A stretch of DNA of 14,284 nucleotides, from positions 1 to 14,284 of the forward strand of contig JAFGBW010000278.1 in NCBI GenBank assembly GCA_016932965.1, written 5' to 3'. A program made the translations under genes and the position numbers. Of the stretch, positions 554 through 14,284 are shown one piece after another (the first letter of the stretch is position 1; every line of letters starts with the position of its first letter). The stretch comes from Candidatus Auribacterota bacterium (GTDB lineage Bacteria > Auribacterota > JAFGBW01). The notes below the pieces were generated by a model. The model worked only from the letters and a program-made list of their open reading frames with translations. It was not told where the DNA came from and searched no databases.

Positions 554-1432
554 TTATCCCCTCATGTTGAATTTGTTTTTTAAACTGATCGCCGCATATA
601 ATTTCTTAAGAAAAAAATAAACTTCACCCTGGTTGGGGATGAAATAAGATGCTTTTGAAGAACGATGTCCAACAAGGACAGTGATTCCTTTCGCGGATAA
701 AAATTGAAAGGCATCTTCATCAGTCATATCGTCTCCGAGATAAAAGATACTCAATGTCTTGCGTTTACCGCGTAAAGTCCGGGTTAATATGGTTTTAACC
801 GCCCATCCCTTGTCGCATCCTTTTGGCCTGATTTCAAAGACTTTTTTTCCGAATAAAATGGAAACTGAATCATGGGATAATGATTTCTTGATGGTGCTCA
901 AAAACCGGGTACGAATGGCCTCTTCACAATTCAAAGGAGCCCTTCGATAATGCAACGCCAGCATATCCCCTTTATTCTCAAGCCGCAAGTATTCGGAATG
1001 CCTCACCCAGGCCGATAGTTTATTTTTTATTTTAATCAATCCTTTCTGATATGAGAAAGGGGCTTTTCTCTGCTGTTTGATGCCGTCCTGCTCTATCTGG
1101 CATCCATGAAACCCTGCATAAACAGTATGGGGAAACGAAACAAAATTTTTAATTTCCTCGATGGACCTTCCGCTTATGACCGCCAGATGAAATCGTCCTG
1201 TAGCGAGAAGCTTTTCCAATATTTTCCTCGTCCGGCTTCCCAAAATGGCCAGTTTTGGATTACGAACAATCTTTGTGAGTGTTCCGTCGTAATCTGTAAA
1301 CAGAAATATTTCCTTCCCCCTTACCTCGTTCATGATCTCATCCCAGCAGGTAAAAATATTTTTCATGCGCTCTTTTGTTCTATCTTTATCTTGGCTGTGA
1401 GAAAAATCTGCTTGATCAATATTAGCTCCCAT
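554..1432 (-). CDS. otsB: Trehalose-6-phosphate phosphatase
   Basis: A HAD-superfamily phosphatase of 292 residues that removes phosphate from trehalose-6-phosphate, the second step of the OtsAB pathway. HAD motif I is DYDGTLT (47-53), with D47 the expected nucleophile and D49 the acid/base. Motif II is ISGRS (86-90). A conserved lysine region follows (EIRPKGCDKGWA, 200-211), and the Mg-binding motif is GDDMTDEDAF (233-242). The cap-domain segment GFHGCQIEQDG (108-117 region) is also typical. Length is slightly above the E. coli enzyme. The ATG at 1432 has no good ribosome site (CCTCT lies just before it). An alternative ATG at 1366 (residue 23, MKNIFTCW) keeps the whole catalytic domain. The gene follows the TPS gene by 45 bases and precedes the small membrane gene by 4 bases. 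Confidence 0.93.
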   Translation of the reverse strand: MGANIDQADFSHSQDKDRTKERMKNIFTCWDEIMNEVRGKEIFLFTDYDGTLTKIVRNPKLAILGSRTRKILEKLLATGRFHLAVISGRSIEEIKNFVSFPHTVYAGFHGCQIEQDGIKQQRKAPFSYQKGLIKIKNKLSAWVRHSEYLRLENKGDMLALHYRRAPLNCEEAIRTRFLSTIKKSLSHDSVSILFGKKVFEIRPKGCDKGWAVKTILTRTLRGKRKTLSIFYLGDDMTDEDAFQFLSAKGITVLVGHRSSKASYFIPNQGEVYFFLKKLYAAISLKNKFNMRG

Positions 1433-1477: not shown

Positions 1478-3709
1478 TCACGTTTTTTGAATCGCTGTCA
1501 TCTCTGTGATGATATTCCCTGCCCAGCGATAAATATTTTTTTCCTGAATTGTTTTTTTAAGACTTTCCATTCTTTTCTTTTTTTCATCCATCGGCATTTC
1601 ACAAGCCAGCCGGATTCTGTCGGCAAATTCCTCAATAGAGTAGGGATTAATGGGGATAGCTTCCGTCAGTTCCCTCCAGGCCCCGGTAAACGTACTCAAT
1701 AAGAGTACGCCGTTCATATCCGTTTTGGCCATGATGTATTCTTTGGCAACCAGATTCATTCCGTCATGAAGGGAACTCACGATACAAAAATCCGCCATCT
1801 TGTAATAGAGCCTTATTTCATTCACATAAAAATGTTTCTTCAGGTATAGAATAGGCTTCCAGTTCCCGTCTAAATATTTCCAGTTTATTTTTTCGACTTT
1901 CTCATCAATTTCCGCATCCAGATCATGATAGCTTTTAATATGAACGCGGCTGGGCGCCCCTATCTGAATGAACACGAACTTTTTCCGATAGGATGGATAT
2001 TTTTCGAGAAACCGGTCAATGGCATTCAGCCTTTCCACGATACCTTTGGTGTAATCAATTCTGTCCACTCCCACACCAATGATCATATCTTTGATTTCCC
2101 TTTCTTCCTGAATCATCCGGATCTTTTCATCGTCATCAGAGAAACATACCTCCTTGTCATCTATACTGATTGGAAAGGGTTTCACGAATGTTTCATAACC
2201 GGAACGCACAACTGAAAACTTCTCCATGTCGATCCGGCATTCCAGGAAACGGTTGACCGTATCGAAAAAATTATTGCAGTGATACTGGACATGGAATCCA
2301 ATCAGATCACAGGCGAGCATTCCTTCCAGAATTTCCTTTTGAAAAGGACAAATGGAGAAAGACTCGGAATTGGGCCATGGAATATGCCAGAAAAGAGCGA
2401 TCTTGGCATCCGGGCATTTCTCCCGGATCATCTGGGGAAGCAATGTGAAGTGATAATCCTGAATAAAAATAAAAGGATTTTTCGCAGGCACTTCTTCAAG
2501 GACAGCGTCAGCAAATCTTTGGTTGGCTTTTTTATACATCTGCCAATCCCTTTCCCTGAATACCGGACGAGTATGCGTGTTATGACAAAGCGGCCACAAT
2601 CCCTCATTGGAAAAACCGTAATAGTACCCGTCTTCTTCTGCCTTGTTCAGCCAAACCCGTTTTAAAATATACCGGCTGTCTTCGGGAGGCACCCCTAATT
2701 TATTCTTGGAGTTGACGAATTTCCTGTCGGCATTTCCGCCGCCATGAGCAATCCACATGCCCCCGCAAGTACTCATGATGGAGTCTAGAGCAGTCACCAC
2801 GCCGCTGGCTGGTCTGATGCACCGGACAACACCTGAAACAGATTCCGCCATATGCATATAGGGTTCACGGTTCGAAACAACAAAAAAACCATTCTCCCCC
2901 AATTTGGCATGAATCAAATCTTTTAAACGGTCAACTGTCCACAACTCCTCCTGCTGGACCCGCAAGGCGGCCTGTTCCGATAGACTTTTCTGAGCCACTT
3001 TGAGTTTCAGGGCCATCTGTTCAACTTCATTGGCCAATTGTCCCAATTCCGCGCCATCCTTCACAATCGGATGCAATTCCAGAACTTCCCCCCTTTGATA
3101 ACGATGAAACCATTCAGTGAGATGTTCCACAGGACGGATAAAAAGCTGATGATACAGGATCAATAAGATTCCCAGAACAATGAGAATAGTTATAATGAGT
3201 GTGAGACTCATTCTCTTCCAGAACTCGATAAGGCTGCTGAAAACATAGGACGTATCATAGATGATTTCAATAGCCCCTAAAACCTGATCTTCATTGTCAA
3301 AGAAAGGGAGCGTATAACTGTAAACCGTATATTGCTGAAATTTTTCTAAAGCCGCTCTGGGTTCTTTGGTCCGGAGCACTTCTATCACATAGGGTTTTTC
3401 TTTTTCCTTCCAGTCGGAGAATCGTTCTGTCAAAGCCAGAATGGCACCGGTCTTGTCATATAGCACGCATCCTTGCAATCTCTCCCTTTTTTGAAACCGC
3501 TCAACTAATTTATTGGCGTACTGATAATCTTTATTCAATAAGAGATACTTGGCGGCAAGCTCCATGCTTTCGCCCACAACCTTGGTTTTTCGTTTTAAAT
3601 CATCCATGAGCTTTTCCTCATGGACTCGAAGCTGGAACAGGCCAAAGGCGATAAAAACACCCATGATTATGAATATGATGGGTATGCTAAAGATCAGAAT
3701 TTTTTTCAT
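1478..3709 (-). CDS. otsA: Membrane-anchored sensor-HAMP-trehalose-6-phosphate synthase fusion
   Basis: A 743-residue protein with a complete GT20 domain at its C-terminus (about 275-737) that should make trehalose-6-phosphate from a nucleotide-glucose (usually UDP-glucose) and glucose-6-phosphate. GT20 signatures are SNREPY (279-284), IQDYHFTLLP (416-425), FWHIPWPNSESF (440-451), DLIGFHVQYHCNNFF (468-482), GVDRIDYTKGIVERL (547-561; R550 and K555 match the phosphate-binding pair) and SLHDGMNLVAKEY (646-658). Typical OtsA is about 470 residues. The extra N-terminal part has a membrane helix (about 4-26), an extracytoplasmic region (27-165) resembling a Cache-like sensor (CVLYDKTGAILAL; VYSYTLPFFDNEDQVLGAIEIIYD), a second helix (168-188), a HAMP-like segment (about 188-243, with RPVEHL and DGAELGQLANEVEQMA) and a short coiled coil up to about 255. 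The ATG has no strong ribosome site and lies 3 bases after the stop of the preceding small gene, suggesting coupling. Confidence 0.92.
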   Translation of the reverse strand: MKKILIFSIPIIFIIMGVFIAFGLFQLRVHEEKLMDDLKRKTKVVGESMELAAKYLLLNKDYQYANKLVERFQKRERLQGCVLYDKTGAILALTERFSDWKEKEKPYVIEVLRTKEPRAALEKFQQYTVYSYTLPFFDNEDQVLGAIEIIYDTSYVFSSLIEFWKRMSLTLIITILIVLGILLILYHQLFIRPVEHLTEWFHRYQRGEVLELHPIVKDGAELGQLANEVEQMALKLKVAQKSLSEQAALRVQQEELWTVDRLKDLIHAKLGENGFFVVSNREPYMHMAESVSGVVRCIRPASGVVTALDSIMSTCGGMWIAHGGGNADRKFVNSKNKLGVPPEDSRYILKRVWLNKAEEDGYYYGFSNEGLWPLCHNTHTRPVFRERDWQMYKKANQRFADAVLEEVPAKNPFIFIQDYHFTLLPQMIREKCPDAKIALFWHIPWPNSESFSICPFQKEILEGMLACDLIGFHVQYHCNNFFDTVNRFLECRIDMEKFSVVRSGYETFVKPFPISIDDKEVCFSDDDEKIRMIQEEREIKDMIIGVGVDRIDYTKGIVERLNAIDRFLEKYPSYRKKFVFIQIGAPSRVHIKSYHDLDAEIDEKVEKINWKYLDGNWKPILYLKKHFYVNEIRLYYKMADFCIVSSLHDGMNLVAKEYIMAKTDMNGVLLLSTFTGAWRELTEAIPINPYSIEEFADRIRLACEMPMDEKKKRMESLKKTIQEKNIYRWAGNIITEMTAIQKT

Positions 3710-3712
3710 GGG

Positions 3713-4042
3713 TTATTTCTTCATGATCAGATACAGCAATTCTATGCCCAGCCATAAGATAGAACTGATTCCTAACATCATTTTCCGGTAATTTCTCCAG
3801 TCAGCCAACGTGGCTGGTTTCAAGTCTACTGTCTGGCCGTTAAAATAGCGAATATCCAAGTAACGTGCAAGAATCATGATTGCGACATTAATCCAGTAAT
3901 AAATCAGTTAGAGAAAAGAAGTACGCGAATACAGAGCTATCCCCAAAATGGCCAGAGCAGCATTGCCCAACAGCATCCAGTAAAGTCGAAGAATAATTGG
4001 GCCCAACGAATTTGTATGGTTATGATTTTCATCCGTTCTCAT
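3713..4042 (-). pseudogene. Small membrane protein gene interrupted by an in-frame TAA
   Basis: The frame opens at an ATG with a near-perfect ribosome site (TAGGAGGAGG, 5 bases upstream) and reads 44 residues (MRTDENHNHTNSLGPIILRL...) to a TAA at 3908-3910. The same frame then stays open for 64 more codons to a TAA just before otsA. The two halves read as one 109-residue protein with hydrophobic segments at about 17-38, 46-58 and 91-107 and a polar stretch between the second and third (RYLDIRYFNGQTVDLKPATLADWRNY). The polar stretch looks like a conserved family, so the second half is probably former coding sequence. No function is recognised. It may be a point-mutated gene, a sequencing error, or two small proteins with the second starting at the ATG at 3877, which lacks a good ribosome site. 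It is the first gene of the trehalose cluster, 3 bases before otsA. Confidence 0.65.
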
Positions 4043-10429: not shown

Positions 10430-11824
10430 ATGAGCAAAAAAATCATTGTTGTGGATGATGAACCCAGCATGCTGGCGGTCATTGAAGCCATGTTGTCGAG
10501 TGAAGAATACGAGGTTCATTCTTTCGATGATGCGGTCAAAGCCATAGAATTTTACAGGACTCATGGCGCAGATCTCATCATCAGCGACATCCGCATGGAA
10601 AAAATGGACGGCATCAGTTTTTTAAAGGGAATACGGGAAATAAGCGCTGAAACCATGGTGATCCTCATCACCGCCTTCGCCAATGTGCAGGATGCCTTGC
10701 ATGCCATGAAAATGGGGGCATATGACTATCTTCAAAAACCTTTTAAAATGGAGAAACTAAGGGCGCTCGTCAAACGCGCCTTGACCGTTCAGGAGATTCT
10801 CATAGGCTCGCCTGCTTTGGAGAAAACCCAGGAAACAACGGAGATTTTTTGCGGCATTGTCTCCCAGAACAAGGTCATGAAAGAGCTGTTCTCCATGATT
10901 AAAAAAGCCGCTCCGTCAAAAACGACCATTCTTCTTCAAGGGGAATCCGGAACAGGCAAGGAATTATTTGCCCGTGCCATTCATGCCAATTCCGGACGTC
11001 AGGAAGAACCTTTTGTAGCGATCAATTGCGGCGCTTTACCTGAACCTTTGCTGGAAAGTGAGTTATTCGGACATGTCAAAGGCGCCTTCACCGGAGCGGT
11101 GGAAGAAAAAGTCGGCCTTTTTAAAGCAGCCGGGAACGGAACGATATTTTTAGACGAGATCGCTTCATTGACCCTCAATCTCCAGGCAAAATTATTACGT
11201 GTTCTACAGGAAAAAGAGATCCGACCCGTGGGCAGTGTCAAAACAGAAAAGGTCGGAAGCAGGGTGATTGCGGCCACCAACACCAGTATTGAAGAAATGG
11301 TCACCGGAAAAAATTTTCGGGAAGATCTTTACTACCGTTTGAATATCATTCCAATTGAAATCCCGCCGTTACGGGAACGTCCGGATGATCTGATGCCGTT
11401 GATCAGGTATTTCTTCAGGAAATATTCTCCGGATAAATTATTTCGCATTTCCCCGATGGCATTGAACACGTTATTAGAATACCGATGGCCTGGAAATATT
11501 CGGGAACTGGAAAGCACAATAGAGCGGATCACGACTCTTTGTTCGAACGAACTCATCACACCTGAAGATCTTCCGGCCTTTCTGAGAAAAAGTCCGCGGC
11601 TGATAAAAACAGAAGCCGGAAAAACCGGCCCATTTTTCCAGATGGATTATTCGTTCAAGGAAATCATTCCTCTCAAAAGATTTATAGCTCTAGCTGAAGG
11701 CCAATACATCCATTTTGTTTTGCATAAGACAGAGGAAGACGATACCCTGGCAGCGAAATATCTTGGAATCGACATCAACAGCCTGAAAAAAAAATTGGAA
11801 CGTCTTGAAAAACTCAAAAATTAG
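10430..11824 (+). CDS. NtrC-family sigma-54 response regulator
   Basis: A 464-residue two-component regulator that activates sigma-54 promoters after phosphorylation. The receiver domain (about 4-120) has the acidic pair D9/D10, phosphoacceptor D53 (ISDIRM), T81 (LITAF) and K103 (QKPF). The AAA+ domain (about 142-370) has Walker A GESGTGKE (171-178), the sigma-54 contact loop GAFTGA (218-223), Walker B TIFLDEI (238-244), ATN (282-284) and WPGNIREL (353-360). The short C-terminus ends in a Fis-type helix-turn-helix (AAKYLGIDINSLKKKLERL, 441-459). AGGA lies 9 bases before the ATG, and the gap after cdsA is 3 bases. No histidine kinase gene is visible, so its partner must be elsewhere. I see no clear sigma-54 promoter in this window, so its targets are unknown. 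Confidence 0.93.
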   Translation: MSKKIIVVDDEPSMLAVIEAMLSSEEYEVHSFDDAVKAIEFYRTHGADLIISDIRMEKMDGISFLKGIREISAETMVILITAFANVQDALHAMKMGAYDYLQKPFKMEKLRALVKRALTVQEILIGSPALEKTQETTEIFCGIVSQNKVMKELFSMIKKAAPSKTTILLQGESGTGKELFARAIHANSGRQEEPFVAINCGALPEPLLESELFGHVKGAFTGAVEEKVGLFKAAGNGTIFLDEIASLTLNLQAKLLRVLQEKEIRPVGSVKTEKVGSRVIAATNTSIEEMVTGKNFREDLYYRLNIIPIEIPPLRERPDDLMPLIRYFFRKYSPDKLFRISPMALNTLLEYRWPGNIRELESTIERITTLCSNELITPEDLPAFLRKSPRLIKTEAGKTGPFFQMDYSFKEIIPLKRFIALAEGQYIHFVLHKTEEDDTLAAKYLGIDINSLKKKLERLEKLKN

Positions 11825-13832
11825 TATTCCCCACAGCAAGCCTTGGGGAAGCTCCGCTCAAAAAGATGCCCTGCAGCTGTCTGTTCGGCCTGGCCCCGCT
11901 GCTCGAGTCGGGGAATGCGCCCGGCAAATTCATGAATTCCCTTATGATACGTTCCAGCTCAAAGCCATAGAATCAATCAAAAAGGGACATTCCGTGATCG
12001 TTTCCGCCCCCACAGGGGCCGGGAAAACGGTCATTGCCGAATACGCTGTCAGTTATGCGATGGAAGAAGGAAAAGGGACTATCTATACCGCCCCCATCAA
12101 AGCTCTGAGCAATCAGAAATACCGTGATTTTGTCCGTTCTTATGGAAAAGAAAACGTGGGTATCTTGACCGGGGACGTCGTCATCAATCCTGGGGCCCCC
12201 ATGCTGATCATGACAACGGAAATCTTTAGAAATCGCCTTTTTGACCAGGAACACTTATTCGAAAACCGGCGCTATGTTATCTTTGATGAAATTCATTATC
12301 TTGACGACATAGAACGGGGGACAGTCTGGGAAGAATCCCTCATCTTTTTTCCGAAAAATTTAAGATTTTTGGCCCTTTCTGCCACCATACCCAATATGCA
12401 TGAGCTGGCCGGCTGGATCGAATCCATCCATCATCACGGAATTGATGTGATTGAAGAAAAAAAACGCCCGGTTCCGCTCCATTTTCTTTTCATGACCGGG
12501 AATAAAATCCATGATGGTTTCAACGAGCTTCAACATCATTTTCATAAAAAATATGACTTGAAGTCCAACAATCTGAAATCCCTGATCCTTCATCTCCGCA
12601 TGAAGAATAATTTCCCTGCCATTTATTTCGCGTTCGGCCGGGTTCGCTGTGAAACCATGGCAAAACAAAGCGTTCATTTCAATCTGGTTAACGCAGAAGA
12701 AAAAAAACAAATCATCATGCGTTACAGGGAGCTTCTGAAAACATTTCATTTAGATGAGGATTTTCATGCCCAGGAGATGACCGCCTTGATTGAACACGGT
12801 ATCGCTTTTCATCATGCCGGAATCTTACCGGCGTTAAAGGAGGTGGTGGAGAGACTTTTTACGGAAAAGCTGATCAAACTGATTTTTACTACCGAAACTT
12901 TTGCCATAGGCATCAACATGCCTGCCAAGACAGTTATTTTTGATGAATTAAGAAAATTTTACGGCAATGGTTTTGATTTTTTAAAAACCAGGGATTTTTA
13001 TCAGATGGCCGGCCGGGCTGGCCGAAGAGGATTTGACGATTATGGCCTGGTTTACTCTCGTATTAATCCTCTTTCAATCTCTAACAACCGCCTGAAAGCA
13101 ATCATCTTCAATACTCCCGAACCTATTTATTCCCAATTCAATTCGAATTATGCCACGGTGCTTCATTTATACCGGACTCTGGGCGAAAAAATCCTGGATA
13201 TCTATCCCTTGTCTTTCCACTATTACCAGTCGGGGAAAAAGGATATAAACAAAGGACTGTTTTCCCTGAAAAATAAGATAAGACTGTTAAAGCAGTTGGG
13301 ATTTATAGAAGAGGAAAAACTCACCGCCCGAGGACTTTTCGGATTGAAAATATTCGGATATGAACTGGTGACAACCGAATTGTTCATGAATGGATTTTTC
13401 GAAACTGCTTCCCCTTCTGAGATCAGCGTGCTCCTGTTGGCCATGATTTTTGAACCTAGAAAAAATCAGCGGCCACCCCATCTTTCAAAACACCTGCGGC
13501 GATTGAAAGCCTATGCAGACCGGATTCACGCGCAGGTCGAAAAAATAGAAAAAAATTTCGGGATTTCATACCGGACCAAACGATTCTATTTCCATCTGTC
13601 CGAGGCCATGATGGCCTGGATGAAAGGGGTTTCTTTCCAGGATCTCCGTCATTTGACAGATGTGGATGAAGGAGAAATCGTCCGTCATTTCAGAATGACT
13701 CTACAGACAGTCCGGGAATTGAAAAGCGTTTCCGGATGTTATTCGCGGTACTACGACAACTTAAATGAATGCATGATGAAAATCAAGAGAGATGTAGTCG
13801 ATCCGGATACCCAGTTCGAATTGGGGGGTTGA
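11805..13832 (+). CDS. Ski2-like DExH helicase with DSHCT-type C-terminus
   Basis: A superfamily 2 helicase of up to 675 residues. Motifs are I SAPTGAGKT (67-75), Ia APIKALSNQK (96-105), TGD (122-124), TTE (137-139), II DEIH (161-164), III LSATIPN (191-197), IAFHHAGILP (333-342), TTETFAIGINMPAKTVIF (362-379) and VI QMAGRAGRRGFDDYG (400-414). The part after FNSNYATVLHLYRT (445-458) matches the helical and DSHCT-like region of Ski2/Mtr4 proteins (LTARGLFGLKIFGYELVTTELF, 506-527). Eukaryotic relatives unwind RNA for the exosome. Bacterial relatives are less understood, so an RNA role is likely but not shown. The only in-frame conventional start is TTG 11805, giving a 20-base overlap with the regulator gene. 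Residues 1-43 look unlike the family and fall in a GC-rich repeat region, so the true N-terminus is doubtful. The helicase core is secure. Confidence 0.88.
   Translation: MKNSKISIPHSKPWGSSAQKDALQLSVRPGPAARVGECARQIHEFPYDTFQLKAIESIKKGHSVIVSAPTGAGKTVIAEYAVSYAMEEGKGTIYTAPIKALSNQKYRDFVRSYGKENVGILTGDVVINPGAPMLIMTTEIFRNRLFDQEHLFENRRYVIFDEIHYLDDIERGTVWEESLIFFPKNLRFLALSATIPNMHELAGWIESIHHHGIDVIEEKKRPVPLHFLFMTGNKIHDGFNELQHHFHKKYDLKSNNLKSLILHLRMKNNFPAIYFAFGRVRCETMAKQSVHFNLVNAEEKKQIIMRYRELLKTFHLDEDFHAQEMTALIEHGIAFHHAGILPALKEVVERLFTEKLIKLIFTTETFAIGINMPAKTVIFDELRKFYGNGFDFLKTRDFYQMAGRAGRRGFDDYGLVYSRINPLSISNNRLKAIIFNTPEPIYSQFNSNYATVLHLYRTLGEKILDIYPLSFHYYQSGKKDINKGLFSLKNKIRLLKQLGFIEEEKLTARGLFGLKIFGYELVTTELFMNGFFETASPSEISVLLLAMIFEPRKNQRPPHLSKHLRRLKAYADRIHAQVEKIEKNFGISYRTKRFYFHLSEAMMAWMKGVSFQDLRHLTDVDEGEIVRHFRMTLQTVRELKSVSGCYSRYYDNLNECMMKIKRDVVDPDTQFELGG
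11827..11915. repeat. GC-rich stretch with nested inverted repeats at the helicase gene start
   Basis: Two hairpins are visible. TTCCCCA (11827-11833) pairs with TGGGGAA (11844-11850) around a 10-base loop, and CCCCG (11894-11898) pairs with CGGGG (11909-11913) around another 10-base loop. The outer ends TTCCCC (11827-11832) and GGGGAA (11910-11915) are also complementary. The stretch is clearly richer in GC than the flanking genes. It may be a small palindromic repeat element or a structured junction that controls helicase translation. Confidence 0.45.
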
Positions 13833-13837
13833 TTAAC

Positions 13838-14284
13838 TCACTCAACTCTTTTATAGCCCTTGACGCTGTCCGCCTGCGCCTTCATGATTTCGAGATAAGG
13901 TGTCGGAGCATTAGGATCCATGATCCTGGGTGCAATGAGAAGAAAAGGATGTTTGCCCTTTTTCAAAAGATTGGTCAGTCCATCACTGTGAAAACCCCCT
14001 GTTACTAAAATAAAACGATCTAATTTCTCCTCTTTCATCCGTGCAAATGCATTATCCAGAAGAATCTGATCGCGTTTGATGGCTGCCTCATAAAAATCAA
14101 GAACAGAGGGGAGATTCTTTTCTACGAGGGAATAATCCACATCAAATCCCAAAAACACATTATATTTTGGGCCCTCTTTCTGAATAAAATCAACGGCTTT
14201 CCTGAAAGAAAACTCATTTTTGTTCTCTTTAAAGAAAAGATAATCGGATTTGACCACTTCCAGTTTAAACAGCTTCCGGATCAA
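13838..14284 (-). CDS. Unrecognised protein, C-terminal 148 residues (5' end off the right edge)
   Basis: The frame reaches the window's right edge, so only the C-terminus is seen. The leucine codon at the edge should not be read as a start. The visible part contains FLGFDVDYSLVEKNLPSVL (44-62), an Asp- and Arg-bearing helix-like segment FYEAAIKRDQILLDNAFARM (64-83) and a striking motif FILVTGGFHSDGLTNLL (91-107), followed by FLLIAPRIMDPN (114-125). The alternation of a strand, then GGFHSDG, then a strand suggests an alpha/beta fold in which the His may matter. I cannot name the family. The pattern of an RD-N helix followed by a strand and a G-x-H loop is loosely reminiscent of TraB/ChaN-type proteins, but that is speculation. 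It is convergent with the helicase gene, with 5 bases between the stops and no terminator between them. Confidence 0.7.
   Translation of the reverse strand: MIRKLFKLEVVKSDYLFFKENKNEFSFRKAVDFIQKEGPKYNVFLGFDVDYSLVEKNLPSVLDFYEAAIKRDQILLDNAFARMKEEKLDRFILVTGGFHSDGLTNLLKKGKHPFLLIAPRIMDPNAPTPYLEIMKAQADSVKGYKRVE

Follow-up and report, generated by a model that had tools for sequence, protein, structure and literature searches.

A receptor-like trehalose-6-phosphate synthase with putative Cache and HAMP modules encoded in Auribacterota and three other bacterial phyla

Locus and domain order

The window analyzed here, which is the whole stretch of 14,284 nucleotides of contig JAFGBW010000278.1 (Candidatus Auribacterota bacterium, assembly GCA_016932965.1), encodes a protein of 743 amino acids that joins a membrane receptor module to a trehalose-6-phosphate (T6P) synthase (TPS) domain of the GT20 family. 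The open reading frame starts with ATG and contains no internal stop codon. It is followed on the same strand, 45 bp downstream, by otsB, the product of which scored 149.7 bits against TIGR00685 (cut-off: 68) and matched PF02358 with an E-value of 3.5e-37. The features are as follows:

1478..3709, minus strand: receptor-like trehalose-6-phosphate synthase, 743 aa, in the order TM1, single Cache, TM2, HAMP, helix, GT20
3632..3700, minus strand: TM1, residues about 4-26 (hydropathy of the family; AF2 helix 2-58)
3230..3631, minus strand: predicted extracytoplasmic single-Cache domain, residues about 27-160, approximately 135 aa (profile and predicted fold)
3143..3214, minus strand: TM2, residues about 166-189 (hydropathy of the family and AF2)
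2990..3145, minus strand: HAMP, residues 189-240 (profile and a/d pattern)
2891..2989, minus strand: connecting helices, residues 241-273 (fixed spacings in relatives)
1481..2890, minus strand: GT20 trehalose-6-phosphate synthase domain, residues 274-743 (Pfam and OtsA residues)
554..1432, minus strand: trehalose-6-phosphate phosphatase (otsB), 292 aa (TIGR00685 and PF02358)

The hydrophobic segments that the first-pass annotation had placed at about 4-26 and 168-188 are present (about 4-26 and 166-189) and recur across the full-length relatives, nearly all of which carried two such segments in a hydropathy scan, at about 4-22 and 167-185. The same scan puts the second segment of the window protein at 160-178, owing to its merging of runs. 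We infer a membrane topology for the 743-residue protein in which the sensor is extracytoplasmic.

Three further reading frames of the window were noted. A small hydrophobic open reading frame directly upstream of the fusion gene (3713-4042, minus strand) has an in-frame TAA at 3908-3910 and may be a gene in decay or the result of a sequencing error; it was rejected as a partner of the fusion, as no relative of it was present near other members in the fetched loci. The frame at 13838-14284 (minus strand) is cut by the contig end and had no Pfam or PADLOC match. The 675-aa DEAD-box helicase-like protein at 11805-13832 (plus strand) had PADLOC matches to HamB helicases and is probably a housekeeping relative and not a defense gene. 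A defense role of the fusion protein itself was also rejected, with zero PADLOC matches.

Taxonomic distribution and phylogeny

A first scan of named genomes returned five end-to-end relatives with 59-66% identity over the whole length, from MAGs called Omnitrophica, Omnitrophota, Syntrophales, Syntrophaceae, and Elusimicrobia. Whole-genome searches were performed using a six-member alignment, with counts read from the hit tables and contig-end fragments included, and identified about 185-190 full-length relatives among approximately 1,070 genomes of four phyla (that of the window and three others). The fusion was present in roughly 105-110 of 384 genomes of the phylum of the Omnitrophica MAG, in roughly 45 of 247 of that of the Elusimicrobia MAG, and in roughly 33 of 395 of that of the Syntrophales MAG. 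Within the phylum of the window it was found in the window's own genome only (1 of 44), close soluble forms being present in three others. By identity the relatives fall into subfamilies A (which holds the window protein; 58-66%), B (41-46%), and C (36-38%). The apparent giant size of two members (L063 and L129) seems to come from a spurious in-frame 5' extension of an otherwise usual protein. A viral origin was considered and rejected, as there were zero relatives in viral contigs.

In a quick tree of 82 GT20 domains all membrane forms grouped in one clade (SH-aLRT 96) beside soluble sisters; membrane and soluble states are separated by one change on this unrooted tree. The one ground for regarding a gain of the membrane module as simpler than its loss is that every one of the more remote TPS proteins is soluble. 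The soluble GT20 sisters (about 490-545 aa; L003-L006, L076-L081, L171-L173) come from the same phyla, are about 50% identical to the fusions in the GT20 domain, and often share the gene cluster (TPP, DUF5752, TreT) with them; they differ in having no TM, Cache, or HAMP and in falling outside the membrane-form clade.

The sensor domain

The N-terminal part matched Cache and HAMP through the family profile and through relatives, whereas the window protein's own Pfam scores were below threshold. For the Cache domain, the window protein scored 24.6 bits against dCache_3 (cut-off: 25.7) over residues 40-158, while the relative L109 exceeded the cut-off with 28.0 bits, and 37 of 79 relatives matched the Pfam model sCache_3_2 at E ≤ 0.01. 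In NCBIfam, residues 5-244 matched the sensing portion of WalK, a histidine kinase (E 2.7e-8). A profile built from 79 members recovered WalK (E 7.5e-5) and KinD by sequence and aligned with DcuS/DpiB over 22-192 (E 2.6e-9).

An AF2 model of residues 1-273 was calculated from a six-sequence input (mean pLDDT 75.5, with the sensor mostly at 80-90). A long helix spanning TM1 leads into a PAS-like sheet, from which a second long helix extends through TM2; in the sensor, helices extend to residue 75 and are followed by the five strands of the sheet (80-85, 90-93, 118-124, 127-137, and 143-152). The closest solved structures by VIA Z-score were WalK (9a5d, 15.8; 4ywz, 14.7), CitA (14.7), KinD (about 14), and DcuS (13.2), and Foldseek concurred on the single-Cache receptor matches. 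By profile and predicted fold, the sensor is a single-Cache domain.

WalK (YycG), the top structural match to the sensor, shares with the fusion the order of TM, single extracytoplasmic Cache, TM, and HAMP, but WalK signals through a histidine kinase that acts on a response regulator, whereas the output of the fusion is a biosynthetic glycosyltransferase. CitA and DcuS (sCache_3_2) resemble the fusion in the fold of the sensor (Z 13-15) and in sequence profile (E 2.6e-9), but they too have histidine kinase outputs, and their carboxylate-binding residues are missing from the fusion: R107, H110, and R147, the ligand-binding residues of DcuS, correspond to positions near I90, L93, and S131 and are not conserved in the family. 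A carboxylate ligand of the DcuS/CitA type was therefore rejected, and a dicarboxylate or citrate cue is unsupported. Osmolarity as the cue is only a guess.

In subfamily A the sensor contains residues that are invariant in 35 of 35 members (F72, R75-E76-R77, G80, C81, Y84, Y130, P135, G145, D152, T153, and S154), which points to a function that has been kept. In subfamily B the sensor is much the less conserved part, with a mean pairwise identity of 34% vs. 67% in the GT20 domain, which speaks against the receptor reading.

HAMP and the path to the enzyme

On its own, the window protein scored 17.6-19.3 bits against HAMP over residues 189-236 (Pfam cut-off: 25), and a relative with 59% identity (L033) passed the cut-off with 27.6 bits over 193-236; 11 of 79 relatives matched at E ≤ 0.01. 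The 79-member profile was compared with a HAMP alignment drawn from kinases and one phosphatase of related genomes, resulting in a probability of 91.7% and an E-value of 7.8e-7. Related genomes also encode ordinary histidine kinases and a SpoIIE-type phosphatase that the sensor-HAMP module scored against. The characteristic marks follow the TM helix, namely P193 in AS1, the connector glycine G207, and E221-L222-G223 at the start of AS2, together with hydrophobic a/d positions at a spacing of 3-4 (AS1: V194, L197, F201, Y204; AS2: L222, L225, V229, M232, L236).

Averaged hydrophobicity shows the 3-4 periodicity of a parallel coil in both AS1 and AS2, and it persists as far as about residue 243, with a peak near 103 degrees per residue; a clear coiled-coil repeat was not seen in residues 244-256. 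The distance from W164 (TM2) to P193 (AS1) is 29 residues in all 79 fusions, that from E228 (AS2) to W257 is 29 residues in 75 of them, and that from W257 to N280 is again the same in every fusion (23 residues). Insertions and deletions occur in the loop of the sensor, in the HAMP connector, and in the GT20 domain, all of which vary in length. In the aligned sequences, such near-fixed lengths from TM2 to the first catalytic loop are the pattern expected of a helix-borne signal, which is not proof of one.

The GT20 enzyme

The GT20 domain described as intact in the first-pass annotation proved to be so: residues 275-737 matched the Pfam model with an E-value of 7.5e-120 (401 bits; cut-off: 32.5), and the catalytic residues of OtsA are present. 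Those checked were R9, G22, Y76, W85, D130, H154, R262, K267, R300, D361-L365, and E369 in OtsA numbering, which are catalytic or substrate sites in OtsA structures. All occur in the window protein (R281, D418, H442, R550, K555, R588, D649, and E657 correspond to OtsA R9, D130, H154, R262, K267, R300, D361, and E369) and in all 79 aligned fusions, save one gap at W85. R281, near the end of the signal path, is the equivalent of OtsA R9, which contacts the phosphate of glucose-6-phosphate. The score against TIGR02400, the NCBIfam model for OtsA equivalogs, was 418 bits and thus under the cut-off of 564.85; by this sequence-based rule the fusion is a divergent GT20 member and not an OtsA equivalog. 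The likeness to OtsA comprises the catalytic domain and residues and the phosphatase partner gene, but OtsA is soluble whereas the fusion adds an N-terminal TM-Cache-TM-HAMP module of 273 residues. The fusion is the sole GT20 protein in the assembly of the window's genome, which without it would have no OtsA-type enzyme. The full-length AF2 model was poor in the GT20 part (pLDDT 63) and unfit for work on the interface of helix and enzyme.

Genomic context

In each of the 18 subfamily A loci read, a phosphatase gene is adjacent to the fusion gene or lies nearby, and in most of these a DUF5752 gene and a TreT-type glycosyltransferase gene follow. DUF5752 adjoins TreT in every locus where it was found (L035, 9017-9673, and about 20 others) and is a candidate trehalose-pathway protein. 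The window's genome carries TreT on a different contig (G000:C36:16427-16852; L202) and DUF5752 was not detected, and the Omnitrophota-type cluster is thus split in this genome. In the Syntrophaceae MAG, the gene immediately upstream of the fusion gene encodes an MscS-type mechanosensitive channel (L034, 4896-5930), which fits an osmotic theme.

Reduced membrane forms

Reduced TPS forms without Cache were observed at L176 (8129-10003), L177 (8422-10170), L187, L188, L190, L191, L192, L194, and L196; TM and HAMP are kept in L176, L177, L187, L188, L192, and L194. They come in two layouts, with either two short TM helices and HAMP or one TM and HAMP. The genomes G1048 and G1027 each hold a full and a reduced copy, which could represent controlled and uncontrolled versions of the enzyme; alternatively, the sensor could be dispensable. 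The TPS encoded on plasmid pAA02 of Aminobacter aminovorans (L144, 5893-7710) lacks HAMP, has a single TM helix at its N terminus, and joins the subfamily C branch. It is annotated only as trehalose-6-phosphate synthase and lies near genes for a GT4 protein and an amylo-alpha-1,6-glucosidase. The Cache-less members and the Aminobacter protein indicate that sensing is not needed by every member.

Putative mechanism and alternative explanations

The best explanation, which we consider likely, is that a single protein acts as both transmembrane receptor and enzyme, with the output of T6P set by a cue from outside. The periplasmic single-Cache domain would bind or feel the cue, and the resulting change would pass via TM2 to a dimeric HAMP and coiled-coil helix. 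The coil would then reposition the first catalytic loop of GT20, which bears the putative glucose-6-phosphate-binding arginine R281, and the shift of this loop would raise or lower the synthesis of T6P, which the neighboring phosphatase would convert to trehalose. What the sequences establish are the domains and their order, their conservation, the grouping in one clade, the intact catalytic residues, and the adjacent phosphatase gene; control of synthase activity by an outside cue, the cue itself, the dimer, and the direction of signaling are all parts that we infer.

A joining of two separate genes by an assembly error or by a chance fusion of frames has next to no probability and is regarded as refuted, since relatives of the same length aligned from end to end in independent genomes of other phyla. 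The proposed order of sensor, HAMP, and GT20 was upheld, a HAMP, a recognizable sensor domain, and single-gene relatives all having been found, and the outcomes named beforehand as speaking against it (no HAMP, no sensor, mis-joined genes) did not appear. The existence of reduced forms without a sensor domain makes anchoring alone the main rival. Here the N-terminal part would serve only as an anchor and dimerizer that holds the TPS at the inner membrane, near a transporter, a sugar pool of the cell envelope, or other trehalose enzymes, and Cache and HAMP would exert no control over activity. Paralogs that keep a TM helix and HAMP after losing Cache agree with this, as do the Aminobacter protein with its single TM and missing HAMP and the fact that membrane attachment is the one trait common to the whole clade. 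However, most members over four phyla have kept a full Cache, which contains invariant residues in subfamily A; near-fixed lengths along the signal path are not something that an anchor would need; and two genomes hold both a full and a reduced copy, as expected if the copies differ in control. We judge anchoring alone to be unlikely.

It is far less probable that the GT20 domain is itself the sensory or regulatory module, i.e., a non-catalytic or weakly catalytic reader of T6P or UDP-glucose that passes a signal to a partner or outward. With a receptor module attached, the protein does resemble signaling proteins more than enzymes, but every OtsA catalytic residue tested is kept, the phosphatase gene is adjacent, and the window's genome contains no other GT20 protein. 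With the receptor-enzyme as the preferred reading, we turn to what it would mean.

Biological implications

The outputs known for Cache/HAMP receptors are kinases, cyclases, phosphatases, chemotaxis proteins, and transcription factors. No description of a fusion of HAMP with TPS or GT20 was found in the searchable literature, to which most subscription journals and the architecture databases did not belong. The 2016 census of Cache domains reported only signaling outputs, namely kinases, chemotaxis proteins, c-di-GMP enzymes, phosphatases, nucleotide cyclases, serine/threonine kinases, transcription factors, and ion channels (PMC4822843). Omnitrophota have been described to encode trehalose synthesis, with the architecture passed over in the relevant passages of that report (PMC8542988), and a Ramlibacter genome paper mentions trehalose enzymes and no HAMP-TPS fusion (PMC3164672). 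While its parts are known, the Cache-HAMP-GT20 combination thus appears to be undescribed.

On balance we favor the view that these proteins form a widespread receptor family of single origin, in which an outside ligand or physical cue switches T6P synthesis post-translationally within one protein, an output that is not listed in the 2016 census. Perhaps a quarter of the Omnitrophota genomes sampled carry a metabolic enzyme fused to a Cache/HAMP module, as do genomes of three other phyla. If enzyme activity is gated, the family would provide a direct switch from the outside to metabolism with no gene regulation in between, and research on HAMP would gain an output with a simple continuous enzyme assay. 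The control of trehalose, a protective solute and possible carbon store, would then become testable in uncultured bacteria.
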